Source: a virus. Taken from it: a stretch of DNA of 20,448 nucleotides. The notes beneath the pieces are model-generated. The model had not been told where the DNA came from. It saw nothing but the letters and a program-made list of their open reading frames with translations, and did no database searches. A program made the translations under genes and the position numbers. The stretch lies in the IMG/VR virus record IMGVR_UViG_3300030419_005151, positions 1 to 20,448 of that record, one strand, 5' to 3'. Of this stretch, positions 3 to 20,448 are shown piece by piece (positions within the stretch are counted from its first letter, which is position 1; every line of letters begins with the position of its first letter).

Positions 3-1682
3 GATTGTGGTACTTTAAGTCAATGTCGTTGTGATGGATGTTGTAGTCCCAGAGGTGCATGTTGTTATGAAGGGGGAACGCAACCGCAATGGGGATGCGA
101 AGATGATGTTCTTCGTACTGATTGTAGGGAAGACCTTGGAGCAATTTTTTATGAAGGTCTTTGGTGCAGTGAACTTCCAGAAGATTCTCCTTGTTGGGAA
201 GAAGAAGAAGATTGTGGTGGTGATTGGGGTGCAGTGTGCCAAGAAGATATTCAGTGTGCTGACCATTTATGTTGTAGAGATATTGGTGCAAATAGTTCCA
301 TGGCAGTTCCGGGCCGTGATGGTTATTGGGGTAGTGTACCACCACAAGATGCTTTCCGATGTTGGGATTGTGATGGCATAGACATGCGTGACAGTGAGGG
401 CAATTATAATAATTGTGACGGATGTGAACCTGGAATTACCTGTCAAGGCAATTGTCCTCACGGATATGCTTGCTACTGGGATGGTATAACAAACCAGCAC
501 TCGTGCATTCCGTGGGCTATGTTTTGCATTCTTTGTGACCACAATGACCCCATTGGGACTTGCTCAGGGTGTAGTTCACCGAGTTGGCCTGATTATTATG
601 ACTGTGGACCTTCAACGAATCTTCCCTGTTCATATCAGACCTGGCCTGGTTTTCACCTTGAAGACACAACGCCTGGTGCTTGCTGTCAGCACGAATATGC
701 AGGGGAGGGAGAATTTATATACATTGGTTGTGAGATAACTAGTTGGAGGAATTGTCTTCTGGCCGAAGGCCGGGGAAAATGGTGGGGACCGAACACCACT
801 TGTGGGGAATTTGAAGACTGTTGTGATGGTGAACCAGAACCAGAACCAGATGAATGTGTAGTAAATGCCGATTGTGGTGAAGGATTATGTTGCTCTGACA
901 GTGGAGAGTGTGTAACTTGTGATGAATGTGATTGTGAGTGTTTCGATTCAATTTCCGAATGGGAATGTTGTGAACAAACAGAAGGCAATGGAATATGGAA
1001 TGCCGGGCAAACTTGCGAGGATATCGAGTGTGAGTGTCCAGAAGAACCTGAATGTGGTCCAGATTCTCCTTGTCCATTGCCTTGCTATAACTGTGAGGAT
1101 GGTATTTGTGTTCCAGAATGTGATGAAAATTCTGATTGTTCACCAAACAGTTGTTGTGTTTTTAATTGCTGTACAGAGTGTGAACCAGAATGTACTGACG
1201 ACTTACAGTGTTCTGGAGAACAATGTTGCGTGAACAACTCTTGCACATATAACTGCTCACAAACACCTTGCGTTTTTGATTCCGAATGTCCTGGAGAACA
1301 AGAATGTGAAGATGGTGTATGTATCGACCCTGAGCCAGATGAAGAGTGCGAAGAAAATGATGACTGTCCATATGCAAAGTGCTGTGAGGAAGGTGAATGT
1401 ATTTTTTGTGACCCAGAACCACCAGATGAAGGAGATTGTGAAGTAAATGCCGATTGTGGTGAAGGGTTATGTTGCTGGGATTTTGAAGGGTTTAAGACAT
1501 GTTTTGCGTGTGAAGAAGAAGAAGAATGTGAATGTTTAGGAGGCGGTGCAGGAGATTGTCAGTGGCAATTAGGAGGTTCGATTCCATGCGGACCAGATGA
1601 TATACCTGATGAAGATGGTTTGTGTTATGGTGTGTATTGTTGTTGTGATGACCCAGCCTGCCAGCAAATGGCATGTTATTAA
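3..1682 (+). CDS. Cysteine-rich fibre/virion protein, 5'-partial
   Basis: The frame is open from base 3, so the N-terminus lies left of the window; 559 codons plus TAA are visible. From Met 234 to the stop I count 83 cysteines in 482 residues. Two six-Cys GACC-type units start near 54 and 681. A different repeat, C-x5-C-x4-C-C-x(3-8)-C, occurs once at 237 and then in tandem at 855-1511, joined by acidic linkers rich in Glu-Pro and poly-Glu. There is no transmembrane segment in the visible part. The GACC units are shared with the three collagen-like fibre genes at the other end of the window, so a fibre or tail-decoration role is the best inference. The x5/x4 unit loosely resembles whey-acidic-protein or Dickkopf-type Cys modules of secreted proteins, but I cannot assign a family. 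Whether it has a collagen-like N-terminus like the other fibres cannot be seen. Reality of the gene: high; function: inferred. Confidence 0.85.
   Translation, partial: DCGTLSQCRCDGCCSPRGACCYEGGTQPQWGCEDDVLRTDCREDLGAIFYEGLWCSELPEDSPCWEEEEDCGGDWGAVCQEDIQCADHLCCRDIGANSSMAVPGRDGYWGSVPPQDAFRCWDCDGIDMRDSEGNYNNCDGCEPGITCQGNCPHGYACYWDGITNQHSCIPWAMFCILCDHNDPIGTCSGCSSPSWPDYYDCGPSTNLPCSYQTWPGFHLEDTTPGACCQHEYAGEGEFIYIGCEITSWRNCLLAEGRGKWWGPNTTCGEFEDCCDGEPEPEPDECVVNADCGEGLCCSDSGECVTCDECDCECFDSISEWECCEQTEGNGIWNAGQTCEDIECECPEEPECGPDSPCPLPCYNCEDGICVPECDENSDCSPNSCCVFNCCTECEPECTDDLQCSGEQCCVNNSCTYNCSQTPCVFDSECPGEQECEDGVCIDPEPDEECEENDDCPYAKCCEEGECIFCDPEPPDEGDCEVNADCGEGLCCWDFEGFKTCFACEEEEECECLGGGAGDCQWQLGGSIPCGPDDIPDEDGLCYGVYCCCDDPACQQMACY
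860..894 (+). repeat. 35-nt near-identical direct repeat, copy 1
   Basis: It matches 1442-1476 at 34 of 35 bases by hand alignment (the mismatch is A884 against G1466). It encodes VNADCGEGLCC in both places and lies in frame, so it reflects a recent duplication or conversion of one Cys module. Confidence 0.85.
1442..1476 (+). repeat. 35-nt near-identical direct repeat, copy 2
   Basis: Partner of 860-894, with one mismatch. Flanking sequence diverges immediately on the right (CTC against GGG), so the conserved block is limited to the module core. Confidence 0.85.
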
Positions 1683-1686
1683 TTAA

Positions 1687-1694
1687 TATAAATA
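1687..1694 (+). promoter_or_regulatory. Candidate T4-type late promoter (TATAAATA)
   Basis: An exact TATAAATA lies in the 28-nt gap before the gene at 1711. This is the consensus of late promoters read by the gp55/gp33-directed polymerase of T4-like phages. Transcription would start near 1700, giving a very short leader with the AGAGG ribosome site (1701-1705) at its 5' end. The motif is short and the region A/T-rich, so a chance match is possible. Confidence 0.5.
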
Positions 1695-1710
1695 ATATAA
1701 AGAGGTATAT

Positions 1711-2493
1711 ATGAAGAAAGTACAATTAATATCAAAATTAACTGAGTTTGCAAACACTGCATATGTTCATAGTAGAAAAATAACTCACGCACATGGTGGT
1801 GTGTGGGATGAGTATCCGTGTGCAAACCCAGATGGTCCAGTAGACAATTGTGATTGTCCAGAGGATGATGATTTGTGTAATTGTCCTTGTCAAGAATTAA
1901 AACCAAATTCAGAGGAACAATTAGAAATAATAAACAAAGAACTTCATGGTGAAGATGAAGAAGGAAATGCAATTATGCGGTCTGTTTCTCCAGACGACAT
2001 GAAAGAACCCACTCAAAAAGAAGTCATAGAAGCAGAAGAATCAATTAAAGAGTGTGAGTTAATTAAAAGTGTTCTTGGAGAAGAATATTTGGGGTGTTTA
2101 TGGAAGGACATAAAACATCCAAGTAGTTGCAACTGTCCCTGTGTTGGTGAGAAGTTTGGCGAATATCTAGGACTGACAAGAACCTATGCAACATATTGGG
2201 ATACAGAACCCAACCAACCATTAATAAGAAATGCACAGATGACCCTTCTTACTTCACAGAGAATAATCTTACAAATAATGCCGGATTATACTTTGAGGCC
2301 GGGTATGTGTATTTACATAAAAGACCCAGAAGCAGTATCTAGAAAAGAAAAAAAGTTTGGTGGGAGATGGTTAGTCCAATCAATATTGCATCAAATTGGA
2401 GGGTGGCCAGTGGCAGCGGCAATGATTGTTACTGCTGTAAGGGATACTCAAGTACAAGACCCGAACAAACAAGGTGAATCTCCTATAGATTAA
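1711..2493 (+). CDS. Tail/baseplate hub-like protein with CNCPC motifs
   Basis: 260 residues; AGAGG at 1701-1705 fits the ATG at 1711. The C-terminal third has LRPGMCIYIKDPE (from residue 195), then GGRWLVQSILHQIGG (217-231). This resembles the pattern in hub or late-control-D-like tail proteins, where a G-[KR]-[YW]-L-V-x2-I-x-H strand closes a beta-barrel domain. The N-terminal half is helical and acidic and holds two CNCPC motifs (residues 56-60 and 140-144) plus Cys 37, 47 and 49, possibly a metal site or disulfide pairs. It lies just upstream of the gp25-gp6 baseplate pair, which fits a tail-tip role. I cannot name the T4 counterpart; the hub reading rests on one motif and on context. Confidence 0.6.
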   Translation: MKKVQLISKLTEFANTAYVHSRKITHAHGGVWDEYPCANPDGPVDNCDCPEDDDLCNCPCQELKPNSEEQLEIINKELHGEDEEGNAIMRSVSPDDMKEPTQKEVIEAEESIKECELIKSVLGEEYLGCLWKDIKHPSSCNCPCVGEKFGEYLGLTRTYATYWDTEPNQPLIRNAQMTLLTSQRIILQIMPDYTLRPGMCIYIKDPEAVSRKEKKFGGRWLVQSILHQIGGWPVAAAMIVTAVRDTQVQDPNKQGESPID

Positions 2494-2545
2494 CTTTATA
2501 ATAATATCACAATAAATGCATCACTAGTATACATACAATATCAGA

Positions 2546-2557
2546 ATAGCATAAACT
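2546..2557 (+). promoter_or_regulatory. Shared 12-nt leader motif, copy 1
   Basis: ATAGCATAAACT lies 17 nt upstream of the gp25 start codon. The identical 12-mer recurs at 18830-18841, 18 nt upstream of another start codon. It could be a variant late-promoter element or a leader element. A ribosome site (GGAG, 2562-2565) follows it. The 81-nt gap 2494-2574 shows no hairpin terminator. Confidence 0.4.
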
Positions 2558-2574
2558 CATACGGAGAACAATAA

Positions 2575-3039
2575 ATGGCCATTGTAAGTGCAAACACAGA
2601 CATTGACATAGATTTAAAGAAAAATAAATTCACTAATGATGTAGCAATCATGAGGGATGTTAATTCTATACGACAATCGATAATGAATATAATACTTACA
2701 ATTCCTGGAGAAAAACCGTTCAATAGAGGTTTTGGAACAAGAATTGAAGATTCTTTGTTTGATAATTTTGACTATGCAGACAGCATAAACACTCAAATGG
2801 AAATAAGAAAAACTATAGAAAGATTTGAACCGAGAGTTCAAATTGATGAAGTATATATCTCTGATGTTCCTTTTTATGAAGGCCCTGACAGTTTGGCCAA
2901 ACGAGAATCTAATGCAAGGGCAATAGTATCGGATAATAATCAATTGTTTATTATGATTTCATATTTTTTGATAAAGGGAGCATCTAATGGCAGGACAGTT
3001 CAAGACGCAATCGCAATCGGTGTAAAAAAGGTAAGATAA
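2575..3039 (+). CDS. gp25: Baseplate wedge protein, gp25/GPW family
   Basis: 154 residues, slightly longer than T4 gp25 (132). The core IPGEKPFNRGFGTRIEDSLF (residues 43-62) and the later FEPRVQIDEV are hallmarks of the GPW/gp25 family, including the conserved Glu-Pro-Arg. In T4 the protein joins the gp6-gp7-gp53 wedge and helps trigger sheath assembly; its fold is lysozyme-like by family name but it has no known enzymatic role. The ATG at 2575 has GGAG at 2562-2565, 9 nt upstream. The stop is 1 nt before the gp6 start, so the two are probably translationally coupled. It has no cysteines, unlike most neighbours. Confidence 0.93.
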   Translation: MAIVSANTDIDIDLKKNKFTNDVAIMRDVNSIRQSIMNIILTIPGEKPFNRGFGTRIEDSLFDNFDYADSINTQMEIRKTIERFEPRVQIDEVYISDVPFYEGPDSLAKRESNARAIVSDNNQLFIMISYFLIKGASNGRTVQDAIAIGVKKVR

Positions 3040-3040
3040 T

Positions 3041-4816
3041 ATGGCACAACCAAATGTAAATCTAGGAAGTTTAGAATTTTACTCCGTTAAACAGAGTATT
3101 ATAGATTTCCTCAAAACTCAAGACACTTTAAAGGATTTTGATTATTCTGGTTCAGCAGTTAATGTACTTCTTGATGTTCTAGCATATAACACAATGTATT
3201 ATGGCCACTATTCAAACATGGTGGCAAGTGAGATGTTCCTTGATTCGGCACAAAGACTATCATCGTTAATATCTCTCGTTAAACCACTGGGATATGTAAT
3301 ACCCGGCAAGATATCTGCTAAAGCAAAAGTAAAGGTTCGTCACGGCGGTCGAGTAGGAACAGCACTCAATAGATACACTAGATTCTCTGGAAGAAACGAA
3401 TCAGGAACTGCATACTCCTTTTATACAATTAATGACTATGCATTGAATCTTGACGGAGAGGCAATCGTAGAAATTTATCAGGGTAAAAGTTTAGCCCAAG
3501 AAATTCCACTATTAGTTGATAGAAGCACACAGAAAGGATTTTTGCACGGATTAGACATTGATATCTCTACCATTACAATAGAAGTAAAACAATTCGGACA
3601 AGATACATGGGATGTATGGAGTAGAGCAGATAATATACAATCTGGATTAGATGCTTCAAGTAATGTATATTGGTTGGAAAGAAGTGAATTAGGATTCTTT
3701 GTTGTGTTTGGTGGAAATGTTGGAATTAATACTACTGTGCAAGTAGGAAAGCAAATAGGGCCAAATGATTTAGTACGAGTATCATATTTAAAAACCAATG
3801 GTAATGCAGGAAATGGAGTCGGAAGTTTTACAATTCAAGGAGTTACAGTTCAAGGAGAAACTGATACTCTTAGTATGTCCTCTGGTGGTGCAGATGAACC
3901 AAATCTAGAATCTATTAGATTCTTTGCACCAAAGTGGTTTGCCGCACAGGATAGAGCAGTAACGGTAGAGGATTGTAGAGCGTTGTTGGCAAGGCATGGA
4001 TATGGAGATAATGCCGATGACCCATTATCCGTATTTAATGTATGGGGTGGTGAAGAAATGGACCCTCCGATGTATGGCAGAGTTTTTGTTTCTGTTAATG
4101 AAGATAATGCAGTAGATTTGGCAGTTCTAGCAGAAACTACAGTCACACTATTAAAAGAAAAAACCTGTGTTACTATTTTACCAGAATTTGTAAATCCTCA
4201 ACAAATTGAAGTTGTTATTGCGGGTTCACTTGCTTGGGACCCTATGCAAACTACTCAATCAAGAGAAACAATAATGAATGGGATATTACAAAAGATGGAT
4301 GAAAAATATCCTCTAAAATTTAACAACAAATTTTCTGCATCTGAAATTTCGGGTGTTATTAATTCTGTTGGCGATTCTGCTGTTTATACAGACCAAAGTG
4401 ATTTTTCGTTTACTATAGTAGGACGAATATTAGGACCACAATTTGGTGCAGTAAAAATTAATCTTGGAAACGAATTACAACAAAGCAGTCTTAATTCTTC
4501 CGAGTTTGTTGCAGGAACAAAAATTACTTCTGATTATGATATTCCTTCTGGCCAAAAAGTTAGAATTAGAACTTATGGTGGTGCGGATAGACAAGGAAAA
4601 CAAAAAATAGAAGCATATTATCAAAACGAAAGTAATACAATAAGTCGTGTTCCAAATGTCGGTGTGTTTATTCCGAGCAAGGGGACTGTAGAAATCTTTG
4701 ATGGTGTCGCTTCTGAGCCTTTTGATGTTATGGTAGTTCCATCAAATAATATAGTTGTAGCAGATAAACATATCATCTCAAAACCAACTTTAGATTTTGA
4801 ATTTGTAAGAGTATAA
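3041..4816 (+). CDS. gp6: Baseplate wedge protein gp6
   Basis: 591 residues (T4 gp6 is 660). The N-terminus has the family signature: an FLKTQDTLKDFDYSGSAVNV segment, then LLDVLAYNTMYYGHYSNM, EMFLDSAQRLSSL and KPLGYVIPG (roughly residues 22-90). The C-terminal half has LKFNNKFSASEISGVINSVG (about 425-444), typical of gp6/gpJ-type wedge proteins. In T4, gp6 dimers form the inner ring that holds the six wedges together around the hub. An AAAGG site (3027-3031) inside the end of gp25 serves the ATG at 3041. Only two Cys are visible. The assignment is secure by motif and by the adjacent gp25. Confidence 0.92.
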   Translation: MAQPNVNLGSLEFYSVKQSIIDFLKTQDTLKDFDYSGSAVNVLLDVLAYNTMYYGHYSNMVASEMFLDSAQRLSSLISLVKPLGYVIPGKISAKAKVKVRHGGRVGTALNRYTRFSGRNESGTAYSFYTINDYALNLDGEAIVEIYQGKSLAQEIPLLVDRSTQKGFLHGLDIDISTITIEVKQFGQDTWDVWSRADNIQSGLDASSNVYWLERSELGFFVVFGGNVGINTTVQVGKQIGPNDLVRVSYLKTNGNAGNGVGSFTIQGVTVQGETDTLSMSSGGADEPNLESIRFFAPKWFAAQDRAVTVEDCRALLARHGYGDNADDPLSVFNVWGGEEMDPPMYGRVFVSVNEDNAVDLAVLAETTVTLLKEKTCVTILPEFVNPQQIEVVIAGSLAWDPMQTTQSRETIMNGILQKMDEKYPLKFNNKFSASEISGVINSVGDSAVYTDQSDFSFTIVGRILGPQFGAVKINLGNELQQSSLNSSEFVAGTKITSDYDIPSGQKVRIRTYGGADRQGKQKIEAYYQNESNTISRVPNVGVFIPSKGTVEIFDGVASEPFDVMVVPSNNIVVADKHIISKPTLDFEFVRV

Positions 4817-4837
4817 TTTCTTAGGAACTTAATATAG

Positions 4838-6205
4838 ATGTTTATTAACAGTATTCCATTCAATCAGCCAGACCATAATGAATTTTATAGAATGATTCTG
4901 ATTGGTCAAAAAATTGACACATTGGAAGACCAGGCATCAAACCAGTATATTGATATTCGTCATCTATTCCCAAGATATATCTTAAAGAGAAGTGAATCGT
5001 CTAGTCCAACAAATTACTTGGTAAAATTTACTCAAGCATATTATGATTGGTTGTATAACTTTGGTGGTTATAGATTATTTTCTTTACCTCTGCATTCTAT
5101 AGCAATAAGTGAACTATTAGATATCGACCATACACCCGATGACTTTTTAAAGCATTTTATATACACATATGCTTCAGGATTTCCGGCTTGGTATATGGAT
5201 GAAGGTACTACTGCTGGCGCTCCTCCTCCTTTACCACCAGATATTACACAATACCCACCAGAAGAACCAAGAGTTCCAGGAGTAGATACGGCAGGTGGAA
5301 TTAGGACATTTATAAAAAACATTCGTCAAGCATTCTATCAAAGAAAAAGTACAGAAGATGCTTATCGATATTTCTTTCAATCTTTATATGGTGCGGAACA
5401 AGATACCGATTTCTATTATCCAAAGACAGATATCTTTCGTCTAAATGGTGGTAGATTTGAAGGTAAGCATGTTTACGGTTATATTACAGGATTTCCAGGA
5501 ACTGAAGATGAAGATACGGGTGCATTACCAAGTAGTACTCTAAACGGAAGATGGAAATTCCAAGATAGTTATTGGTTTCAGGAATATTCATATGTTATTA
5601 AAGGTCATATACCACATATTGACCCAGAAACAGGATTGCCAATATACTTTGATGCTTTGTATGAGATGCTACATCCCGCAGGGATGAAGGGCTTCTGGGA
5701 AAAAACTGAAGAGGACTATGTTCCACCTGATGATTTTGACGGTGGTTTTAATTTCTGTGAATCACCAAAATTAGAAAACTATTTTTCATATAGGATGGAT
5801 GATACAGCAAGTCCAGGAAAATGTATGGGTTGTTCTGGAAGTGGATTCACATATGATGGACCTACTGCAATGTTTAAAGGGTGGGAAGGTGCAAGTCTTG
5901 AGGGATTGACTGGATGGACATCTGGCAGTGCATGGAATACCATCGGTGCAGGTGGCATTTGCATAGAAGGTACGAAGGGTTCTACTTTTGATGCTTGGGG
6001 CGGAATTACATTGTCGGCAGAAGGAAAAGGAAACACTTATGGCGCACCCACTCACTATTATCCTGATTGGGCATTAGGAATATCTGGTGATGAAAATAAT
6101 AGAAGCCCCTTTAAGAAGATATATATAGGAGAGTTCATTGAGTTATGTCCATTAGAATATAGTCCAAATCTAGGTTTGACTGGATGTACTGCGAACTCAT
6201 GTTAA
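4838..6205 (+). CDS. Virion structural (baseplate-associated) protein
   Basis: 455 residues; AGGA (4823-4826) precedes the ATG. Three blocks match a structural protein I know from marine T4-like phages, where it also follows gp6: residues 155-207 (FIKNIRQAFYQRKSTEDAYR, then FYYPKTDIFRLNGGRF), residues 235-259 (LNGRWKFQDSYWFQEYSYVI) and residues 274-288 (LYEMLHPAGMKGFWE). It is probably a wedge or wedge-linked component, perhaps functionally near T4 gp7; that equivalence is inference. A proline-rich stretch (APPPLPPD, about residues 128-135) interrupts the N-terminal half. The last 130 residues are Gly/Trp-rich with Cys (KCMGC, GGICIEG, terminal GCTANSC) and look like an added, possibly fibre-contacting, extension. 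Confidence 0.7.
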   Translation: MFINSIPFNQPDHNEFYRMILIGQKIDTLEDQASNQYIDIRHLFPRYILKRSESSSPTNYLVKFTQAYYDWLYNFGGYRLFSLPLHSIAISELLDIDHTPDDFLKHFIYTYASGFPAWYMDEGTTAGAPPPLPPDITQYPPEEPRVPGVDTAGGIRTFIKNIRQAFYQRKSTEDAYRYFFQSLYGAEQDTDFYYPKTDIFRLNGGRFEGKHVYGYITGFPGTEDEDTGALPSSTLNGRWKFQDSYWFQEYSYVIKGHIPHIDPETGLPIYFDALYEMLHPAGMKGFWEKTEEDYVPPDDFDGGFNFCESPKLENYFSYRMDDTASPGKCMGCSGSGFTYDGPTAMFKGWEGASLEGLTGWTSGSAWNTIGAGGICIEGTKGSTFDAWGGITLSAEGKGNTYGAPTHYYPDWALGISGDENNRSPFKKIYIGEFIELCPLEYSPNLGLTGCTANSC

Positions 6206-6214
6206 GGAATTTTT

Positions 6215-8113: not shown

Positions 8114-8131
8114 CGATAGGAGTTTATAACA

Positions 8132-9130: not shown

Positions 9131-9134
9131 TTGA

Positions 9135-9142
9135 GATAAATA
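9135..9142 (+). promoter_or_regulatory. Candidate late promoter (GATAAATA)
   Basis: GATAAATA matches the T4-like late consensus TATAAATA at 7 of 8 positions. It lies 18 nt before the fibre gene at 9161, inside one of the few gaps larger than 25 nt. Only a weak AGAGA ribosome site follows. A/T-richness makes a chance match possible. Confidence 0.4.
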
Positions 9143-9160
9143 TATAAAAGAGAAACTAAA

Positions 9161-11578
9161 ATGGCAGACAATGTATCAGACAATAATTATATCATCCCTT
9201 ACCTTACGGGAAATCACACATTTGCAGATTGGGCAAGTCACTACAACACTACAGTTGTAAACAAACTTAATCTGGGTAAAATATACAATGGTATTTCTGG
9301 TGAAGGTATTGTCTTTACTCTTGGTACGACTGCTTCCAATGACCCAGTTGGCGGAGATTTAACTTCTATAAACGAGGGTGACCTTGAAGCAGGTACATTT
9401 AGATGTAGCATTGCAGATAGAATTCCAAAAGGAATCACCTTTAATCAAGATGTTTCCATTCTTGGTGAATTAAAATATGACTTAACCAAGTTAGAAAATC
9501 CAACAATCAATGTGAGAGTAAATTCATCTCAAGGTTACACTGGAACAAAAGGATTTACTTTTGGTAATCCTATTCGTGTAAAACCATCAAACTCTGCCGG
9601 AGAAGAAGGAATAACTGGTCCTCCAAACTATTATTTGGGAAGAGGAAATAATTTAGATTATGCAGAAGTAATGGGTGTGGTTAAGGGTGTTACTTGGCCT
9701 GTAGATGGTTCTGGTAATCCTGAAGGACCATATACAACCAATAACACATATATTGATGTCTGTCTTTCTGGTAGAATTAAAGGAAACTTTGGTGATGTTT
9801 GGGGCTATAATAACGGAGTTGGTTTAACTGCCGGTGAAATTTACTTCCTAAGTCCTGGAACTAGTGGTGGCATAACTCCAGTAGAACCTACAGTTGCAGG
9901 TCAAATATCAAAACCTATACTCATGGGACTTACTGGTGATGAAGCAATTGTTCTAAACTATAGGGGACAATTCTTGCAAGGTAGTGGTACAGGTGGAACA
10001 GGCGGTATTAATGACAATAGATTCTGGATTGCACCAGACAATGCTAGTTTAGTTCGTGGTGTTGTTGCAGGATATGATGGTACTGATTGGAAAGTTCAAA
10101 AAGCACCAAATGAATTAAATGCGGCAATTGGATTAGTTCTTGATAGGGTTACTTTGGACGGAACAGATTATGTTGAAATTGTTACTTGTGGCCATGTAAG
10201 CAATATTCCTGTTCTCGGTGATGGTGGAGGTTCAACACCAACAGGATTAGTATATGTTGATGCTGACGGACAATTAACTTCTACTGCACCAGCGGGTTCT
10301 GCAAAACCATTTGCGGTTGTATGGCCGGATGGTGACCAAGGGCAACGAAGAGGTGTAATTATAAATCAATCAAGTGGAGGGGGAGGTGCGGGTTCTAGTA
10401 CTGCAACTTCTACTTGGGACCCTGGCGCTGGAAATGTACAAAACCATTCCTATGCCTGGGCATATCGTTCTGATACATCTACTTCTGGTGGTGCAACATA
10501 CGGCTCCGCTGTCAACGAAAACCTCTTGGTTAATGGTGCGTTTGATATCTGGCAAAGAAATATAGGCAAAGATGCTTCTTATGGTGCAACAGGAACAACA
10601 TACTTCGCAGACCGTTGGGTAAGAATTGATGGTGTTTCTGGTGCAGGTAATGTTACAGGAACATATAGTTTAGAGAGGAAGGAATTTGCCAAAAACCAAA
10701 TAGAAGTATTCGGAAATCCAAAATATTATCTTTCATCAAAACATAGAATAGCAGGTACTGGTGGCCATAAGGGTGATAGAATTGTTATCCAGAATAGAAT
10801 AAACGATGCAAGGACTGCTAAAGGGCAGGATGTAACTCTATCCTTCAGTGCGAAGTGTGGTATCACTGGTGCTACAATGGGAATTGTTGTAAATCAATAT
10901 GATGGAACAAATTCACACACAAGAGATGTTGCAACTGCGAGTTTAGGCACTCGATGGGGCAAGCATGAAATTTCATTCACTATGCCAAACTTGCTTGTAA
11001 CACCAACAGGTAAACACTATGTTGGTGTCGGATTTGATGTTACAAAATTGGGACCGCAAAACACTACATTTGACCTTGCTAAAGTTAAACTTGAAAGAGG
11101 TTTAGTTGCAACAGTTAATGTTCCAACGGACGAATCAAAAGAATTAGAAAAGTGTAGTGAGTTTTATCAACGAACCTACAATATAGATGAAAATAATTCT
11201 AGTGTAACTATGTTAGACGATAATAATCCTTCATTAACTGTTCTAGACATTACTACTACACCAATGAAAGATTACTATCATAGATTCCCAGTACGAATGA
11301 ACTCAGTTCCTGATAGTGTTACATTCTTCTCACCAAAATCTGGCACAACAGGGGATGCATATAATAGAACATCAGAAACAGATTTGAGAAGGGCCAGTGG
11401 AACTAACTCTCCGTATGGAACTAGAAGTTCTTCAACAGGAGCGCAAACTATTATTGCAGAACACAAAACAAGAGATGGGTTATATATCGTTATCCCAGAA
11501 GGTACAGTTCTATGGGACCAAGTATCTACACACTATGTGGCAGATGCAGATTTAAATGAGGATATGCCAAACGCATAA
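9161..11578 (+). CDS. Tail fibre protein with C-terminal carbohydrate-binding-type domain
   Basis: 805 residues. The N-terminus (TFADWASHYNTTVVNKLN, about residues 20-37) is typical of fibre and neck proteins of marine T4-like phages. Residues 131-270 and 292-402 are two copies of one beta-rich domain (strands like EVMGVVKGV, YIDVCLSGRI, GEIYFLSP, KPILMGL), and the next gene has a third. A Gly/Ser-rich linker follows. Residues 454-671 hold NLLVNGAFDIWQRN, then YFADRW, then KLERGLVATV and CSEFYQRTY. This is the jelly-roll module with a C-terminal QRYY-like motif found in many phage fibres and thought to bind glycans, so this protein is a good receptor-binding candidate. The start has only a weak ribosome site. 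Transcription may begin in the gap before it. Confidence 0.8.
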   Translation: MADNVSDNNYIIPYLTGNHTFADWASHYNTTVVNKLNLGKIYNGISGEGIVFTLGTTASNDPVGGDLTSINEGDLEAGTFRCSIADRIPKGITFNQDVSILGELKYDLTKLENPTINVRVNSSQGYTGTKGFTFGNPIRVKPSNSAGEEGITGPPNYYLGRGNNLDYAEVMGVVKGVTWPVDGSGNPEGPYTTNNTYIDVCLSGRIKGNFGDVWGYNNGVGLTAGEIYFLSPGTSGGITPVEPTVAGQISKPILMGLTGDEAIVLNYRGQFLQGSGTGGTGGINDNRFWIAPDNASLVRGVVAGYDGTDWKVQKAPNELNAAIGLVLDRVTLDGTDYVEIVTCGHVSNIPVLGDGGGSTPTGLVYVDADGQLTSTAPAGSAKPFAVVWPDGDQGQRRGVIINQSSGGGGAGSSTATSTWDPGAGNVQNHSYAWAYRSDTSTSGGATYGSAVNENLLVNGAFDIWQRNIGKDASYGATGTTYFADRWVRIDGVSGAGNVTGTYSLERKEFAKNQIEVFGNPKYYLSSKHRIAGTGGHKGDRIVIQNRINDARTAKGQDVTLSFSAKCGITGATMGIVVNQYDGTNSHTRDVATASLGTRWGKHEISFTMPNLLVTPTGKHYVGVGFDVTKLGPQNTTFDLAKVKLERGLVATVNVPTDESKELEKCSEFYQRTYNIDENNSSVTMLDDNNPSLTVLDITTTPMKDYYHRFPVRMNSVPDSVTFFSPKSGTTGDAYNRTSETDLRRASGTNSPYGTRSSSTGAQTIIAEHKTRDGLYIVIPEGTVLWDQVSTHYVADADLNEDMPNA

Positions 11579-11593
11579 TGGAGATGACGAATA

Positions 11594-12931: not shown

Positions 12932-12945
12932 CAAAGTAAAATATA

Positions 12946-15900
12946 ATGGTAACAATAATTCATGGTAGCAGTCACTTCAAACCAATCGGACAAACGGGAA
13001 TTTCTGGTCCGACTGGAAATACTGGTCCTACAGGGCCTACAGGACCTACCGGCGAGGGGATAAGAGGAAGTACAGGATGGAGTGGTGGTAACATCACCAA
13101 CATGTACCTAATCGGTGATAAACTTCATACAATATTTTCAAATGTAAATGATGGTTCGGGTTACACTAGCGGTTACACTACAACAACAAGAATAAAAGGG
13201 CAAACAGGAGATACCTACAATCTTATTGATGGTGGTAATACTTCTGGTGGAGTAGGCACAGGCGGTGCGACATTTGCAAAAGGCAGAAATCGAGCGTTTG
13301 ATTTAAATACTATTGTAATAAAATCGATTGAAGTTACTGGCGATAACGATGGCTCTGCCATCTCGTTGGAACAAAGAGAAGATTTAGATACGGTTAATAT
13401 TCATTTTGACAGGGGTAACTTTGGTTATCTTGATGTTGGTCCAGGAAGTTTTGAAGGTCAATTAGTAGGAACTGATAGCAACGCATTAAATAATCTTTGG
13501 TTTGTTGGTGTTACTGGGGCGACATACGACACTGGAACTAGTCGTGGATTAGAAAATGGTGCATATGCAATCGATGTTCAAGTTCAAGACTATAAAGAAA
13601 AGATAAAATATTTAACAGTCGGAGCGGCAGGTTCTGGTAAAGATTTAGAAAACTTAAATGAAAATCCTGCCGGTCAAAACCCAATATATGCACCACCTAC
13701 AAATACACCAATCGACCCAAACGAAGCAAAAGTTCTTGTTCTAGATATGAGGCAATTTGAAGGTGTTGGTGCAACAGAATCCACAGGTGGTGTTCAACTT
13801 CGTTTTCGTGATGCACACTTTGGATATACTGGAAATAAATCTTATTCAAACAAAGATTTAGGAAAAGCATTTACACTTATCGCTCATGGTGTGACTAACG
13901 GATACGAACTGTCTAGATTCGATGGAAGAAATGTAATTTGGCCATTAGATTTAGAACCTTGTTGGAGTGGAGAAACTGATATTATTAATTTCTTCTGGTT
14001 GCCTTGTGATGATAGAGATTTAGGACATCCAGATGGAAATCACTGTGAAGGTGGTGCGGCATGGCATGGAAATATTGTTCAGTGGAAATCTCAAGGAACT
14101 GATATAGTTGCAGGGAGTGAATATGACCCATTTGTCTGTCATTCAGAAACTACAAATTATACTAATGGATTTAAGGGTTATAATTCTGGAATGACTGGTG
14201 CAACCGGCGCGTGTTGTGTTGGTGACGGAATTTGTGTTCATACGATGTCGAATTTCTGTCATGGTTATTACTTTGGAGCGGGTACAACATGCGGTGCGGG
14301 TGGAACAGGAAGTGTATGCTATGAACTAGGTGCATGTTGTACAACAAATACACAAACAAATAAAAATAAATGTTACGAGGACATTTCTTCCAATGATTGT
14401 ATGGAATTGGGCAATATACTAAATTATGATTCCTTCTTCGGTGGAACAGGAAGTGAATGTGAAGATATGAGTTGTCTAGCAGGACAAGAAAAGAGAGGTG
14501 CTTGCTGTGACGGTTTAGGAAACTGTTTAGAATTAACAGAAGAAGAGTGTCGTAAAAGGAGAAATTATTTTGTTGGAGTTGGCGTTTCTTGTGAACTGGG
14601 TAGCAAAGGAATTTCTAATGTTTGTGGTGGTGGAACAGGTGCATGTATTCAAGAGGAATCTTCTTGCTTTGACGGCCGGTCTGGTGGTTCTTGTATAGAT
14701 GATGGTTATCTGTATGCAGGACATAATACTAGATGTGGTGATGTTAAAGGTATAAGAAAATCTTCAAGTACTTCTGGATGCGTTCCAGAAATTGCTGGGT
14801 TAGATTTAAATCCTGGTGACCTTTATGCAGGTGGAATGGTAGTAGGACTTTATAGGCCTCATGGTTCACCAATAAGAGGTATGAAATCGTTTGGTGGAAA
14901 CAAAGAAACATCTTGGCAAGAATTAATGAAGGGTTCAACTGGTTCAACGGGTAATTTGGGATATGCTTCGGAAATATATAAATCAAAATATGATTATCAT
15001 GGATATGGTTTTAATTCGGTCGGGTGTCCAGAATATAATAGTATGCCTACATCACCAAGTATTGCAAAGCCAGATGCATATTATATTGTAGTATCAATGC
15101 ACCACGCTGGGGTTACTGGCGATAGAGAACTAGTAAATCCGAATGATGTGTATGGTGCAACTGGTACTTTCTTCTGGGGAAATCGTGGAAGTGCATGGGG
15201 TCCATTGTATGACCAAAGAAGTGGAAAATATAACGACATAAGTGAAGAATATAAAGATAAGTTTAGAATATCTGAAGGTTATTGGTATAATGAAAATAAT
15301 GGAGATATGTCAAAAGGAGTTCTTGGAGAAAATACATTTAGTTCATGTAGAAAAGCAAGAAAAATCGGCAACGGGGCAATAGAAAAACTAAAAACAAAAT
15401 CAATACACTCTGCACATGGACTATGGCATAGAAATTGGGGAATGTATAATACTACTAGAATCATTAGTGCCGATAATGCTTTGTATAAAGATTACAGTGA
15501 CGGTGATGGTGCTTATAAAGGTAAGGATTTTGGTCCAGGATTGACTGCTGGATATGTTTCTGCATTCAGGGCGGCAAGACTATTTGATGATTACCTAATA
15601 TCTGCAACGGGTTCAACTGGTCCTATTAATAATAGAGTTTCCAGTTGGTATATTCCAAGTCACGATGAAATGGCATTCATTGCATCAAATTGTGTTGGGG
15701 ATTATGAAGGATTTAATTTAAATTCTAAACTACTTGAAGAAGATGGTGTTCCGTTAGAAGGTTGGCATTGGACATCTACTGGTGCGTTCAATGAAGTTAA
15801 AGGAATGACTTTGGGAATCGGTGAAGGTATCATTAATCCAGTCAATGCGACTGGACCAGCAGGACTCACCGCAGACCCTGGAACACTTGCATGGGCAATG

Positions 15901-16098
15901 AAATTCGATGTTAATGGAATTCCAAAGAACTTTCAAGTTGGCAAAAAGAACAGAACTCACAATAAATATAAAGTAAGACCTATTCGTCTAATTCGTTGCG
16001 ATGGAAGATTTGCAGGGGGTGAAGAGGAAAATTACAAACTATGGAAACTACCAAATGTTCTTCGGGATGAAGACAAAGGAATAAATCAAAGGTACTAG
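12946..16098 (+). CDS. Collagen-like tail fibre with six-Cys repeats and C-type-lectin-like tip
   Basis: 1050 residues. The ribosome site is poor, but the start is supported by homology to the next gene (IIHGSSHFK against AIHGSSRIK) and by the lack of another in-frame ATG nearby. Domains in order: collagen-like Gly-X-Tyr tract (residues 18-36); beta-rich region with a GDN block resembling the next gene; an adhesin-like domain with DIINFF at 345-350 followed by GGAAWHGN; six-Cys repeats (421-612); then about 625-1018, a region opening with GGMVVGLY and closing with SSWYIPSHDEM, GWHWTSTGAF and VRPIRLIRC. That last pattern is typical of the DUF1566/FGE-like C-type lectin fold and is likely the receptor-binding tip. 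The TAG stop abuts the next ATG in the same reading frame. Fibre role: confident; ligand unknown. Confidence 0.82.
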   Translation: MVTIIHGSSHFKPIGQTGISGPTGNTGPTGPTGPTGEGIRGSTGWSGGNITNMYLIGDKLHTIFSNVNDGSGYTSGYTTTTRIKGQTGDTYNLIDGGNTSGGVGTGGATFAKGRNRAFDLNTIVIKSIEVTGDNDGSAISLEQREDLDTVNIHFDRGNFGYLDVGPGSFEGQLVGTDSNALNNLWFVGVTGATYDTGTSRGLENGAYAIDVQVQDYKEKIKYLTVGAAGSGKDLENLNENPAGQNPIYAPPTNTPIDPNEAKVLVLDMRQFEGVGATESTGGVQLRFRDAHFGYTGNKSYSNKDLGKAFTLIAHGVTNGYELSRFDGRNVIWPLDLEPCWSGETDIINFFWLPCDDRDLGHPDGNHCEGGAAWHGNIVQWKSQGTDIVAGSEYDPFVCHSETTNYTNGFKGYNSGMTGATGACCVGDGICVHTMSNFCHGYYFGAGTTCGAGGTGSVCYELGACCTTNTQTNKNKCYEDISSNDCMELGNILNYDSFFGGTGSECEDMSCLAGQEKRGACCDGLGNCLELTEEECRKRRNYFVGVGVSCELGSKGISNVCGGGTGACIQEESSCFDGRSGGSCIDDGYLYAGHNTRCGDVKGIRKSSSTSGCVPEIAGLDLNPGDLYAGGMVVGLYRPHGSPIRGMKSFGGNKETSWQELMKGSTGSTGNLGYASEIYKSKYDYHGYGFNSVGCPEYNSMPTSPSIAKPDAYYIVVSMHHAGVTGDRELVNPNDVYGATGTFFWGNRGSAWGPLYDQRSGKYNDISEEYKDKFRISEGYWYNENNGDMSKGVLGENTFSSCRKARKIGNGAIEKLKTKSIHSAHGLWHRNWGMYNTTRIISADNALYKDYSDGDGAYKGKDFGPGLTAGYVSAFRAARLFDDYLISATGSTGPINNRVSSWYIPSHDEMAFIASNCVGDYEGFNLNSKLLEEDGVPLEGWHWTSTGAFNEVKGMTLGIGEGIINPVNATGPAGLTADPGTLAWAMKFDVNGIPKNFQVGKKNRTHNKYKVRPIRLIRCDGRFAGGEEENYKLWKLPNVLRDEDKGINQRY
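12997..13053 (+). repeat. Collagen-like Gly-X-Tyr tract (gene at 12946)
   Basis: Seven glycines spaced every third residue (G18 to G36), with Pro-Thr as the main X-Y pair (GPTGNTGPTGPTGPTG). It would form a short collagen-type triple helix and so implies a trimeric fibre shaft. Confidence 0.88.
14206..14781 (+). repeat. Six-Cys mini-domain array (gene at 12946)
   Basis: Three clear units start with GACC (GACCVGDGIC, GACCTTNTQ, GACCDGLGNC). The third and fourth Cys are separated by 7, 8 and 7 residues. A degenerate fourth unit (GACIQEESSC) has lost the second Cys of the pair. The array separates the adhesin-like domain from the lectin-like tip. Confidence 0.82.
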
Positions 16099-18819
16099 AT
16101 GGCAATACACGGAAGCAGTAGAATAAAAGATTTAACTGGTGTCAGTTCAATAACTGGTCCTACTGGTGCTACTGGTGCGATTGGACCCACTGGTGCGACT
16201 GGAATAACTGGTCCTCAGGGGAATACTGGATTTACTGGTCATGGAATTACATTTGCTTACGGTACAAGTACTGGACCTGCTGGTGATATGTCTGAAAACC
16301 AAATCATATTCCAATTAGCAGGTTTTAGGGGCGGAACATACGGGTGGGAAACTTGGTCGGGTGGTTCGGAGGGAGGACTAACATTAGGAGTTACTGGTGT
16401 TCGTGGTGGAACAGGTGATAGAGTAAGTGAAAACTTCATAATTTGGAACACCATAGGAAGAGGCGGAATTACCTTTGCCCCATCTGGTTATGGTGAACTA
16501 TTTAAAGAACGAGATGGTTTAACAGCACATTTTAGAAACTTAACCATATCTGGTAGAGATATTTCCGTAAACGGTGATAATGGATATATGATTATGCTTG
16601 GTGGTTTAACATATGATTTCGGCCGAATGGGAATAACAGGAGAACTCTTATACATTAACCCAGAACTTGGTGGATTGTCTGCACAAGGCGCTCCCAATAC
16701 ATTTTGGAGTGGCGACCAATTAACTGCAAAAATATTATCACACAAAGAATCATATAACAAAGGCACAAGCCAAAATGGTAACCTAACACAAAGTGATGAT
16801 AATAAAGCAGGTGACCCGACAAATACATCAGCAGTTGTAAGTACATCAAACATTGATGGAACTGCTGTTACCTTTAGCAGTATATTTGCAGACCAATTTA
16901 ATGGTGAAGGTGGAACAGCAGTTGCAAGTGGTATTCACATGGGTGGCGGTGCGGCAGGAACAATTCACAAATTTGCTGGAGTTACATTTGATTCTAAGTT
17001 TTCTGTGGACGATGTTGCTATAGGTTCTTGTTGCTATTGTGCGGATGGTATGGATAGGCCAGACCATAGAGATTGTGTTGATTATGTAACTAAAAACTAT
17101 TGTGATGGAATTGGTGGGAACTTCTCTTTTGATGTTTGTTTACATAGGTCGGAAGGACCAAATTGCTTCTCAGAAGGTTCTTGTTGTGTTAATGGGAAGT
17201 GTGTTTCAACCAGTGAAGAGAAATGTCAGCAATTTGGTGGTTTCTTTGTTTCTGATATAGATTGTGATTATATATCTGAAGAATTGGGTGGTTGTCCAAG
17301 TCCTTGTGCAGAAAGAGGTGCTTGCTGTATAAACAATGAATGTTTTGAACTTACCGAACATGAATGTTCTTTTTATCCAAACGGTGTATTCTTTAATGAA
17401 AGTTGTGGTGAAGTTAATTGTTGTAAAGAAGGACAATTTGGTGCGTGTTGCATTGATGAAAAATGTTACCATACAACAGCAGAACTGTGCGGTCAATTAA
17501 GAACTGATGATGGTACTGGACCATCTACTGGTATATTCTGGGGAGTTGGTTCAAAGTGTGCGGGACTACAAATGGCTGACCCAAATGAGGGTTATACGGA
17601 TAATTGGTATTTGCCATTTAACTGTATCGATAAAGACGGTGTGATGCATGGGCAATTGAATCCAGAAACTGGCCTGTGTTCTGATGACACACCACCACCT
17701 TGCAGTGGATGCAATGGTTGGAGTCAGATGATGGAAGGTGAAGTGGACCTTGGCGATGAAACAACATATTGCCTTGCTGATACAATCGATTGTCAATGTG
17801 GACCGTATGAGGATAATGAATATAGATGCGTTGACAGCGACTCTTGTGGAACATTGTGGTTAATAAACGGTGAATGTTGGGAGTGCTGTAGAAATCAACC
17901 AGAAGATTATGAAGTTATGGGTTCATGTTGTGTAGAGGATGTTGAGTTTGGTTGGATGTGTATCACTTCATCAAGAGAATCTTGTGATATTGCTAATGGT
18001 TTCTTTAGTATTGGTTCTTGCAATGATGTAAATTGTAGTAGTGGTTCATGTTGTTCTGATTTCACATGTTCGATGGGTACTCCTGTTGATTGTAGTATGT
18101 TGGGTGGTTACTGGCAAGGATTGGATTGTAACCAAACAGATTGTTCTGGTTCTGCATTTAAAGATTATGATATATTAGAATCAGTAGTAGAACCAGAGGC
18201 GGTCATTGGTATATCAGTGAAAGATAAAAAGGATAACAGGATTCGTAGATTGGCAAGAGAACAATATAATGTTGTATTAAAATCTAAAGAAGTAGAAGAA
18301 TCTGTGCCAAGAAATCAATGTCCACCTTCTGCGAACATTCCTTCTTGTATTGAACCTAACATTGTGGTTGCAGAAGGAAGTAGTAACCAATGGACTATAG
18401 AAGTAGGAAGTGGTGAATGTTCTTGTTGTTGCCCTGGTGTTTGCTGGAGTGGTGCATTAGGAGATGGTGGTATTGCCGAAGACTGTTCTTCTTTTGGACA
18501 ATATTGTGAACCAGTAGCAGATTGCTTTAGTGGAAACTGTAAACCTAATTCTTCTTCTACATCCCATGAAATATCATCCTTACCAACAGATGTCAAACCA
18601 ATATGTACGAATTCACAATGGGAAACAAACACACTTGGATGCACTCCATACATGGACACTTCTGACCCAAGAAATCCAATTTGGATGACATGTTCTTGTT
18701 GTTGTAAAAACGGAAGATGTTTACAATACGAAGAGCCTATTCCTTGTTCAGATTGCGAAGCATTAGGAACAAATAGTGATTGTATTTGTGTTAATGGGTG
18801 TGACAAGTGTTTTAATTGA
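16099..18819 (+). CDS. Collagen-like tail fibre with long six-Cys repeat array
   Basis: 906 residues. The ATG directly follows the previous gene's TAG; AAAGG (16088-16092) is 6 nt upstream. Domains: N-terminal IHGSS motif; collagen-like tract (residues 20-47); a beta-rich segment to about residue 308 that resembles the previous gene (NGDN, then TGELLYINPELG); Cys array 309-682 with six GxCC units; a Cys-free, highly charged spacer 685-740 (KDKKDNRIRRLAREQ) likely to be helical; and a second Cys-rich C-terminal region 741-906 with CSCCC twice and NGCDKCFN at the end. It has no lectin-like tip like its neighbour's. It is probably a trimeric, disulfide-stabilised fibre or spike; what it binds cannot be told. 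Confidence 0.82.
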   Translation: MAIHGSSRIKDLTGVSSITGPTGATGAIGPTGATGITGPQGNTGFTGHGITFAYGTSTGPAGDMSENQIIFQLAGFRGGTYGWETWSGGSEGGLTLGVTGVRGGTGDRVSENFIIWNTIGRGGITFAPSGYGELFKERDGLTAHFRNLTISGRDISVNGDNGYMIMLGGLTYDFGRMGITGELLYINPELGGLSAQGAPNTFWSGDQLTAKILSHKESYNKGTSQNGNLTQSDDNKAGDPTNTSAVVSTSNIDGTAVTFSSIFADQFNGEGGTAVASGIHMGGGAAGTIHKFAGVTFDSKFSVDDVAIGSCCYCADGMDRPDHRDCVDYVTKNYCDGIGGNFSFDVCLHRSEGPNCFSEGSCCVNGKCVSTSEEKCQQFGGFFVSDIDCDYISEELGGCPSPCAERGACCINNECFELTEHECSFYPNGVFFNESCGEVNCCKEGQFGACCIDEKCYHTTAELCGQLRTDDGTGPSTGIFWGVGSKCAGLQMADPNEGYTDNWYLPFNCIDKDGVMHGQLNPETGLCSDDTPPPCSGCNGWSQMMEGEVDLGDETTYCLADTIDCQCGPYEDNEYRCVDSDSCGTLWLINGECWECCRNQPEDYEVMGSCCVEDVEFGWMCITSSRESCDIANGFFSIGSCNDVNCSSGSCCSDFTCSMGTPVDCSMLGGYWQGLDCNQTDCSGSAFKDYDILESVVEPEAVIGISVKDKKDNRIRRLAREQYNVVLKSKEVEESVPRNQCPPSANIPSCIEPNIVVAEGSSNQWTIEVGSGECSCCCPGVCWSGALGDGGIAEDCSSFGQYCEPVADCFSGNCKPNSSSTSHEISSLPTDVKPICTNSQWETNTLGCTPYMDTSDPRNPIWMTCSCCCKNGRCLQYEEPIPCSDCEALGTNSDCICVNGCDKCFN
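16156..16239 (+). repeat. Collagen-like Gly-X-Tyr tract (gene at 16099)
   Basis: Ten glycines at every third residue (G20 to G47), with many Gly-Ala-Thr and Gly-Pro-Thr triplets. A likely trimeric triple-helical shaft. Confidence 0.88.
17023..18147 (+). repeat. Six-Cys mini-domain array (gene at 16099)
   Basis: Six GxCC units: GSCCYCADG, GSCCVNGKC, GACCINNEC, GACCIDEKC, GSCCVEDVEF and GSCCSDFTC. In the best units the spacing is CC-x4-C-x7-C-x(11-12)-C-x4-C, enough for three disulfides per unit. A non-canonical Cys segment (CLADTIDCQCG) interrupts the array between units four and five. Confidence 0.85.
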
Positions 18820-18829
18820 TATAGATACT

Positions 18830-18841
18830 ATAGCATAAACT
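18830..18841 (+). promoter_or_regulatory. Shared 12-nt leader motif, copy 2
   Basis: ATAGCATAAACT, identical to 2546-2557, lies 18 nt upstream of the ATG at 18860. The ribosome site AAGGA (18844-18848) lies between them, the same arrangement as at gp25. Confidence 0.4.
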
Positions 18842-18859
18842 ATAAGGATGATTTTATAA

Positions 18860-20448
18860 ATGCCAGTAATCGGAAGCAGTTTAATAACACCACCACAAAC
18901 GGCTCAAGGTCCTAAAGGAAATACAGGTCTTGCTGGGATTACTGGGCCTGCAGGCGATTCTGGTGCGAGGGGTGTTACGGGAACGACTGGCGCAACAGGA
19001 ACTTTTGTTGTTTCTGGTTATCCTTCACCTTCCACCAGAGATTTGATACTCGTTTTATCAGATGGTAGAGAAATTACCATAGAAAATATTGCAGGCCCAA
19101 CTGGTTCGGTAGGATATGCAGACGGACTCACAGGCACTGATGGTGTCAATCCTTATGATATAGTTAAAGCAACAACAGATGGTATCACTTTCTGGTTTAA
19201 AGGATTATCTGCTGAAGGAACACTTCAGGTATATGAAACTAGTGATACGGTAGGAATTAGTGGTGATGTTGGATACCAAAGAGGTGCAACTGCCCCATCT
19301 GTTCAAGGTGGTAGATATGCCTACCTAGAAAGAATGATTGGTGGTGCAAATGCTTTTGCAGGATTTACATATGCCGGTGCAACAGGTTCTGAATTGACTT
19401 CAAGTGAGGCCGGTTTAATGCCGCTTGGTAAAGGGGTTGAATCGACAGCGCCGAGATACTCATACGACCCAGAAGAAATTATTATACCAATTGGTCCTAT
19501 GGAATTAAATAATCCATCGGGTGAAGTAAAATGGTATGGACTCACTGGCAGCGATTATGCTGACAATCCTTGGGGCGATACTGCCGGAAACGGTGTCGGT
19601 ATTCAACTTCCTGTAACAAGAGGAAGTGTGTATGATGTAGAAACACCTATTGGAATTCGTGGATTTACTGGTGATTTTGCATCGAATGAAGTTTTCAGTT
19701 TCACCATGCACCTTAAAGGAAATGATATTTGGGATTGGCCGGATAATGTTTACTTTGATAGCAATGATTTATATTTCTCTTGTGGTTATGATATAATTAA
19801 CTTTTTAACTGATGATGGTGGTGTATCATGGAAAGCAAATGTTGCGGTTCGTGGATATGGTACTAGTGAATGTCAAAGTGTTCATGGTTTAGGTTCTTGT
19901 TGTTATACAGATGAAGAAAATGAATTAAATTGTCGTGACTATATGACAGAATCTGAATGTCACGAACTTGATAGTCCTTTCCCTGATGGGGAACATGGAT
20001 ATTGGGGACCGTTCTCTACTTGTGCAGAAAATTGCGGAATGACCGCAGAAGGTGTTTGTTGCAGTGAAGGTGGTGAATGGGGCAACTTTGGTGGAAGTAC
20101 AAGAATATGTTTGGATGGTGTTGGTGCGACAGAGTGTGATTATTTTGGTGGCACTTTCTGGACACATTATTATTATACAAAAGACGAATGGGGAAGAACA
20201 GTTCCTCTAGAAAATCCTCTTTTGATAGAATGTTTTGGCGAAGAAGAAGAAGAATTAGTAAATGGTATGCTGGGTTCTTGCTGTGTACCGTTTGATGGTG
20301 GCGATGGTGGTGATGGTGGTGATTCAGATTCTGATAGTGATTCAGATTCTGATAGTGATTCAGATTCAGATAGTGATTCTGATAGTGATTCAGATTCTGA
20401 TAGTGATTCAGATTCAGATAGTGATTCTGATAGTGATTCAGATTCAGA
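18860..20448 (+). CDS. Collagen-like tail fibre with Asp-Ser repeat, 3'-partial
   Basis: The frame is open from the ATG at 18860 to the window edge (529 codons plus 2 nt), so the C-terminus is missing. AAGGA at 18844-18848 serves the start. Domains: N-terminal PVIGSS, related to the IHGSS of the two preceding genes; collagen-like tract (residues 17-47); beta-rich region; an adhesin-like domain with YDIINFL (from residue 310) followed by GGVSWKANV, aligned with DIINFF of the gene at 12946; then six-Cys units at residue 345 (GSCC), a second at GVCCSEGGEW, and a third begun at 20273 (GSCCVPF). Where the third unit's next Cys is expected there is a DGG run, then a pure Asp-Ser tract to the edge. 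A third paralogous fibre; the acidic tract would act as an extended, possibly Ca2+-binding, stalk. Confidence 0.85.
   Translation, partial: MPVIGSSLITPPQTAQGPKGNTGLAGITGPAGDSGARGVTGTTGATGTFVVSGYPSPSTRDLILVLSDGREITIENIAGPTGSVGYADGLTGTDGVNPYDIVKATTDGITFWFKGLSAEGTLQVYETSDTVGISGDVGYQRGATAPSVQGGRYAYLERMIGGANAFAGFTYAGATGSELTSSEAGLMPLGKGVESTAPRYSYDPEEIIIPIGPMELNNPSGEVKWYGLTGSDYADNPWGDTAGNGVGIQLPVTRGSVYDVETPIGIRGFTGDFASNEVFSFTMHLKGNDIWDWPDNVYFDSNDLYFSCGYDIINFLTDDGGVSWKANVAVRGYGTSECQSVHGLGSCCYTDEENELNCRDYMTESECHELDSPFPDGEHGYWGPFSTCAENCGMTAEGVCCSEGGEWGNFGGSTRICLDGVGATECDYFGGTFWTHYYYTKDEWGRTVPLENPLLIECFGEEEEELVNGMLGSCCVPFDGGDGGDGGDSDSDSDSDSDSDSDSDSDSDSDSDSDSDSDSDSDSDSDSDS
18908..19000 (+). repeat. Collagen-like Gly-X-Tyr tract (gene at 18860)
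   Basis: Eleven glycines at every third residue (G17 to G47), for example GPKGNTGLAGITGPAG. X-Y composition is more varied (Lys, Asp, Arg) than in the two sister genes. Confidence 0.88.
19892..20320 (+). repeat. Six-Cys mini-domain units (gene at 18860)
   Basis: Two units are complete or nearly so (GSCCYTDEENELNC and GVCC with a 15-residue first loop). A third opens with GSCCVPF at 20273 and leads into DGG repeats and the Asp-Ser tract. C3-C4 spacing is 8 in both complete units. A poly-Glu run (GEEEEEL) sits between units two and three. Confidence 0.75.
20321..20448 (+). repeat. Asp-Ser dipeptide repeat, runs off the window
   Basis: 128 nt encode 21 uninterrupted Asp-Ser pairs and then leave the window. 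Aspartate is always GAT; serine rotates among TCA, TCT and AGT. The DNA has higher-order units: A (gattcagattctgatagt), B (A with TCA for TCT) and C (gattctgatagt), ordered A-A-B-C-A-B-C-B. This gives a 48-nt A-B-C period repeated twice. Confidence 0.95.

Follow-up and report, generated by a model that had tools for sequence, protein, structure and literature searches.

A six-cysteine repeat on T4-like phage tail fibres belongs to a bacterial domain family and is likely related to the iRhom extracellular domain

Introduction

The extracellular domain of iRhom1 and iRhom2, known as the iRhom homology domain (IRHD), has 8 reported disulfides (PMC11248996, PMC12184519). When published, the fold was described as having no known structural relatives (PMC11248996, PMC12184519, PMC10148629). 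Elsewhere, T4-like phages encode collagen-containing tail fibres (PHROG 5073, 819, 6320 and 366) that have an N-terminal GXY tract and follow baseplate genes. Here, we analyse a 20,448-nucleotide stretch, the entire virus record IMGVR_UViG_3300030419_005151, hereafter 'the window'. Its large fibre genes, at positions 12946, 16099 and 18860, resemble the T4-like fibres in both respects. Unlike the annotated fibres, they carry a recurrent six-cysteine repeat, the GACC unit, which also occurs in the gene at position 3. The unit was found in 0 of 50,697 annotated phage records and in no plasmid record; absence from these records is unproven because BLAST masks low-complexity sequence. We consider it fairly probable that the repeat belongs to a family of exported bacterial disulfide mini-domains, taken up on phage tail fibres.

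Results

Six-cysteine units recur in four genes of the window

A preliminary description of the window proposed that one six-cysteine mini-domain recurs in four fibre-type genes, with a nearly fixed gap between C3 and C4. Unit-by-unit measurement confirmed the recurrence. There are 14 measurable GACC-type units: two in the gene at 3, four in fibre 12946, six in fibre 16099 and two in fibre 18860, where a GSCC stub also precedes an SD repeat. Taken in the same order, these proteins contain 2, 3, 4 and 1 copies of the full motif, which is almost never produced by shuffling residues (mean ≤0.0005). The units show the family pattern CC..C-x7/8-C..C..C, alongside conserved G and aromatic residues. 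The C3–C4 gap was indeed 7 or 8 in 14/14 window units. A crude scan that covered the window and related loci (365 units) found a gap of 7 or 8 in 98/136 viral and 200/229 bacterial units.

Other parts of the description required adjustment. Loop 3, said to vary freely, does so in the window. Conversely, bacterial units mostly have a C4–C5 gap of 13 (156/198, compared with 42/101 viral units) and a C5–C6 gap of 4 (159/198, compared with 45/101). Loop freedom in viral units is a departure from the tight bacterial norm. Six cysteines are typical, as described, but not universal; C2 and C6 are both missing from residues 564–597 of fibre 12946, and C6 from the unit at 17440. Finally, 'fibre-type' suits the three collagen-shafted proteins but not the gene at 3, which has no collagen tract.

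The GACC unit is a domain family shared with bacteria

A profile made from 13 window units identified up to 21 units in one related viral contig (E ≤ 1e-3), and a profile of window units found 22 in a 122,976-base viral relative, G005. In BLASTP, bacterial GACC proteins matched the window fibres with E-values of about 1e-7. When an alignment of canonical units was compared with one genome per species (84,980 species), 32 loci were recovered, 29 of them titled Planctomycetota or Phycisphaerae. One genome titled 'Alphaproteobacteria' is in the same class as the central Phycisphaerae genome. Hence, that title is probably wrong. In sampled genomes (E ≤ 1e-7), the unit was carried by 5/149 members of the phylum, and 18/101 of the class, centred on this Phycisphaerae genome. 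For the phylum of a Zixibacteria genome, the count was 29/99. Thus, the distribution is patchy and reaches beyond planctomycetes. The kinship with planctomycete proteins suggested previously is borne out, and is wider than supposed. The spread of the domain hints at a possible planctomycete host for the phage. A further profile, A3, detected 2–148 units in each of 14 bacterial genomes, with more than 100 in some.

Bacterial and phage units share six cysteines, the C3–C4 gap of 7–8, a tandem arrangement and the core G-G-x-Y/F-x-G-D-G-T. The bacterial copies have export-like starts and tight C4–C5 and C5–C6 gaps. Conversely, the phage fibre copies lack a signal peptide, lie behind a collagen stalk, and have loops that are longer and more variable. 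GACC arrays exceeded no family threshold among Pfam, NCBIfam or PHROG models. These collections contain no model for what is a genuine domain family. The phage GACC proteins found here are solely from uncultured contigs.

Some viral copies occur in other settings. Three more viral contigs (L063, L064 and L065), one GC-rich (63%), have GACC units in Cys-rich proteins outside the fibre family. The viral relative G002 encodes a 1692-residue phage protein (L025:10106-15181, + strand) with about 20 GACC units, S/D/G-rich linkers and seven FG-GAP_2 repeats. It also encodes a 664-residue protein (L026:6122-8113, + strand) with five GACC units, in which TPNHVLAIAHY and GDSGS resemble a trypsin-type serine protease; this protein had no Pfam match.

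Paired cysteine losses predict the disulfide pattern

We modelled two adjacent units of fibre 16099 (17920–18036 and 18043–18144; all window features cited are on the + strand) using AlphaFold2 and a 63-row alignment of paired units. The mean predicted local distance difference test (pLDDT) score was 92.1. Each unit was predicted to fold separately into a hairpin, a short helix and a tail. Failure to fold as separate domains was among the outcomes that the preliminary description had named as refuting it, and the prediction shows no such failure.

Natural losses of cysteine are informative about pairing. In a set of 811 distinct units, 3 lacked C1, each of them also lacking C4 (Fisher p = 1e-7), and 12 lacked C2, of which 8 also lacked C6 (Fisher p = 1e-6); these values treat related units as independent and are hence overstated. 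No other pair of cysteines showed joint loss below p = 0.02. The paired losses therefore point to disulfides 1–4 and 2–6, with 3–5 left by elimination. The orthologous unit 4 of fibre 12946 (14638–14736) is a stronger test than the 811-unit statistics. Both C2 and C6 are present in nine tree rows and both are absent from the window, G002 and G005. Single loss was never seen. The tree requires two separate C2+C6 changes, on well-supported branches.

The six cysteines might instead bind a metal or an iron–sulfur cluster, so that the unit folds under the reducing conditions of the infected cell's cytoplasm. That is where phage fibres fold, the phage copies have no signal peptide, and the CC pair and remaining cysteines could act as ligands. 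However, for a zinc ribbon or iron–sulfur site, ligands should be lost as a set, without a pairwise pattern. The losses run in fixed pairs, neither singly nor all together. Furthermore, 575 aligned units contain no near-invariant His or Asp column, the bacterial relatives look exported, and the relative in the PDB is disulfide-bonded. We rejected a metal site, which is very improbable. Of the two roles first offered for the cysteines, the paired losses support disulfides and leave the metal site unsupported.

Bacterial copies have export-like starts and phage copies do not

By a home-made heuristic, signal-peptide-like starts were present in 75/85 bacterial GACC open reading frames, compared with 181/529 neighbouring frames (p = 1e-21), and in 0/13 phage GACC frames. 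Thus, the domain probably acts outside the cytoplasm in bacteria. VKOR is present in 3/4 tested GACC-bearing bacterial genomes. A missing export signal is expected for a virion protein; the phage domain fits the family but the type of protein does not.

Because the phage copies lack a signal peptide, their disulfides would most likely form once the cell has lysed. Cytoplasmic folding would come first, and oxidation could only follow it, unless an oxidase is present. The preliminary description had raised a phage-borne oxidation system as the other route. Searches for thioredoxin (Trx), glutaredoxin (Grx), Erv/ALR and VKOR in 7 to 12 partial viral records produced a single Trx/Grx-like domain, fused to glutamine synthetase. 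Neither Erv/ALR nor VKOR was found in these partial records, although the ALR control matched in no genome. Hence, the proposed system was sought and not found in the records available. We consider it unlikely that the disulfides are formed within the infected cell by an oxidation system that the phage encodes or hijacks. G005 does have a CGWC-containing Trx/Grx-like domain, and its single tRNA gene is for cysteine. However, Trx and Grx proteins are usually reducing, the G005 copy is tied to glutamine synthetase, and tRNA-Cys was not seen in other relatives. We favour oxidation after lysis.

The viral glutamine synthetase has its Trx/Grx-like domain at the N-terminus (L069:12961-14451, − strand; G005 32761-34251), and the G005 enzyme is closest, in the PDB, to eukaryote-type GSII. 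The sole tRNA gene of G005 (123 kb) encodes tRNA-Cys (GCA; L073:14549-14622, − strand). Other viral relatives have tRNAs for Arg, Leu, Ile, Asn, Lys, Gly, Glu and Pro. A tRNA-Cys supply, an idea drawn from G005, was dropped as a general explanation because other relatives have these other tRNAs.

The iRhom extracellular domain is a likely relative

We searched the PDB with the profile from 13 window units. At E ≤ 1, four sequences were returned, all iRhom1 or iRhom2 (entries 9xy4, 9q7y, 8snl and 9o58), with a best value of 1e-5. A broader profile reached iRhom at 3.5e-6. The IRHD of these eukaryotic proteins is thus like the window units in being matched by a profile built from the window only. 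Within it lie a full unit (CC-x6-C-x7-C-x13-C-x4-C) and the opening half of another (ACC-x7-C-x7-C). The spacing in one stretch is 6-7-13-4; the bacterial mode is 5-7-13-4. When cysteines were fixed and all other residues shuffled, the iRhom stretch outscored 2000/2000 shuffles. The IRHD is unlike the phage and bacterial arrays in having two copies at most, in an animal membrane pseudoprotease.

Not all searches agreed. The best E-value for a single iRhom stretch was 0.003. A two-unit profile reached iRhom weakly (0.16), and A2, a profile built from 7 canonical-unit sequences, failed to match it. Single-sequence PDB searches with the units gave nothing credible, iRhom being reached by profile search alone. 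Foldseek comparison of the two-unit model with PDB and viral entries returned nothing at E ≤ 0.001, although small domains are hard for this program. Given the silence of Foldseek, the single-stretch value and the failure of A2, we grade common ancestry of the GACC unit and the iRhom domain as likely only.

Convergence among Cys-rich proteins would also place similar motifs in separate families. The domain is short and much of the signal comes from cysteines. However, the PDB has many Cys-rich proteins and the profile finds iRhom alone. Matches share G24, an aromatic residue at 26, G28 and T31 besides the cysteines, and the cysteine-fixed shuffles all scored lower. We therefore give convergence little credence and prefer a single family. 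A more specific proposal is that the iRhom domain is built round two copies of a bacterial secreted six-cysteine repeat, and that uncultured T4-like phages bear the same module on collagen-stalk fibres with disulfides set only after release. We regard this proposal as evenly balanced between true and false.

Fibre units are placed behind collagen-like stalks

Three T4-like baseplate genes, gp25-like (2575), gp6-like (3041) and a wedge subunit (4838), are followed by a tail-fibre gene at 9161 (PHROG 4492) and, downstream, by the large fibre genes. In each large fibre, an I-x-GSS-like N-terminal motif directly precedes the collagen tract; it is perhaps a common attachment peptide. The tract is at approximately 12988–13062 in fibre 12946, identified from the sequence, and at 16156–16239 and 18893–19012 in fibres 16099 and 18860, where the Pfam Collagen matches are weak and below cut-off.

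Fibre 12946 and its relatives share a common plan of collagen tract, beta region, 2–4 GACC units and C-terminal region. In the window, units 1, 2 and 3 are at 14206–14319 (gaps 0-5-7-10-8), 14329–14475 (0-10-8-19-4) and 14497–14625 (0-5-7-13-10); unit 4 is the copy that has lost C2 and C6, which most orthologues retain. The C-terminal region (14797–16095) is weakly similar to Lcl_C, the C-terminal domain of collagen-like adhesins, which shares the order of collagen followed by a C-terminal domain. The matches involve 4/9 homologues at E ≤ 1 (best 0.0013) and not the window copy. The AlphaFold2 model of this region was poor (pLDDT 44.8) and, hence, we make no claim about its fold.

In fibre 16099, the modelled pair is preceded by a unit with one additional cysteine (17023–17166), units with gaps of 0-4-7-12-9 (17176–17295) and 0-4-7-12-4 (17317–17421), and the unit without C6 (17440–17559). 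Fibre 18860 has a GACC unit at 19892–20035 (0-9-8-20-3) and a GVCC unit at 20051–20233 with a C4–C5 loop of 31. The GSCC stub (20273–20284) is followed by the SD repeat (20302–20446), which runs to the end of the window. The G002 orthologue continues past the repeat into further GACC units. Thus, fibre 18860 is truncated by the contig end.

The gene at 3 encodes a baseplate-region protein with baseplate genes as neighbours. Cysteine makes up 17% of the protein and yet there are only two GACC units, at 54–194 (residues 18–64; gaps 0-10-8-13-8) and 675–821 (residues 225–273; 0-14-7-15-5). Most of the cysteines are in a second module, C-x5-C-x3-5-CC-x-C-x2-4-C, present in about 5 copies at approximately 858–1517 and also recorded in the form C-x5-C-x4-CC-x4-C-x2-C. 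A G002 homologue weakly matches DUF7107.

Units might be passive spacers with no binding role, their loop variation being drift. Viral units do stray from the tight bacterial spacing, as under relaxed constraint, and binding may lie in the fibre tip. The conserved cysteine core and paired losses indicate that folding is under selection, and the position and number of units are kept down to about 28% identity. Both facts are also compatible with a spacer. We consider a purely passive role possible but rather unlikely.

Discussion

We propose that the GACC unit, about 38 residues long, is an extracellular mini-domain stapled by disulfides. C1, C2 and C3 would lie on a beta-hairpin, C4 on a short helix, and C5 and C6 on the tail, with the whole held by C1–C4, C2–C6 and C3–C5. 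A phage lineage may have acquired and expanded the repeat from the family common in exported proteins of the Phycisphaerae class and Zixibacteria phylum. On the phage fibres, the units lie behind a collagen-like stalk and, in the case of fibre 12946, ahead of the C-terminal region. Their disulfides would most probably form in oxic water. In the simplest reading, each unit would be an oxidised, rigid bead between stalk and tip, adding reach and resistance to proteases, with variable loops that may aid contact with the host surface. A modular recognition surface, as first suggested, is plausible.

Several points weigh against this account. The pairing statistics are inflated by relatedness; the C1+C4 losses possibly represent one or two events and the C2+C6 losses about five. 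C6 alone is missing in 61 units, so C2 may remain unpaired or take another partner. The signal-peptide test was home-made, and the phage records, all partial, contain no convincing oxidation enzyme. Because Foldseek gave no PDB match, kinship with iRhom rests on sequence.

The repeat defines a domain family without a name, used about a hundred times per genome by some bacteria, and its natural cysteine losses yield a disulfide map that can be tested. Phages appear to place this extracellular and probably oxidised module on fibres made in a reducing cytoplasm. If true, the iRhom link would give the ADAM17 regulatory domain published as 'unprecedented' a relative among prokaryotes, together with a simpler repeat for its study.

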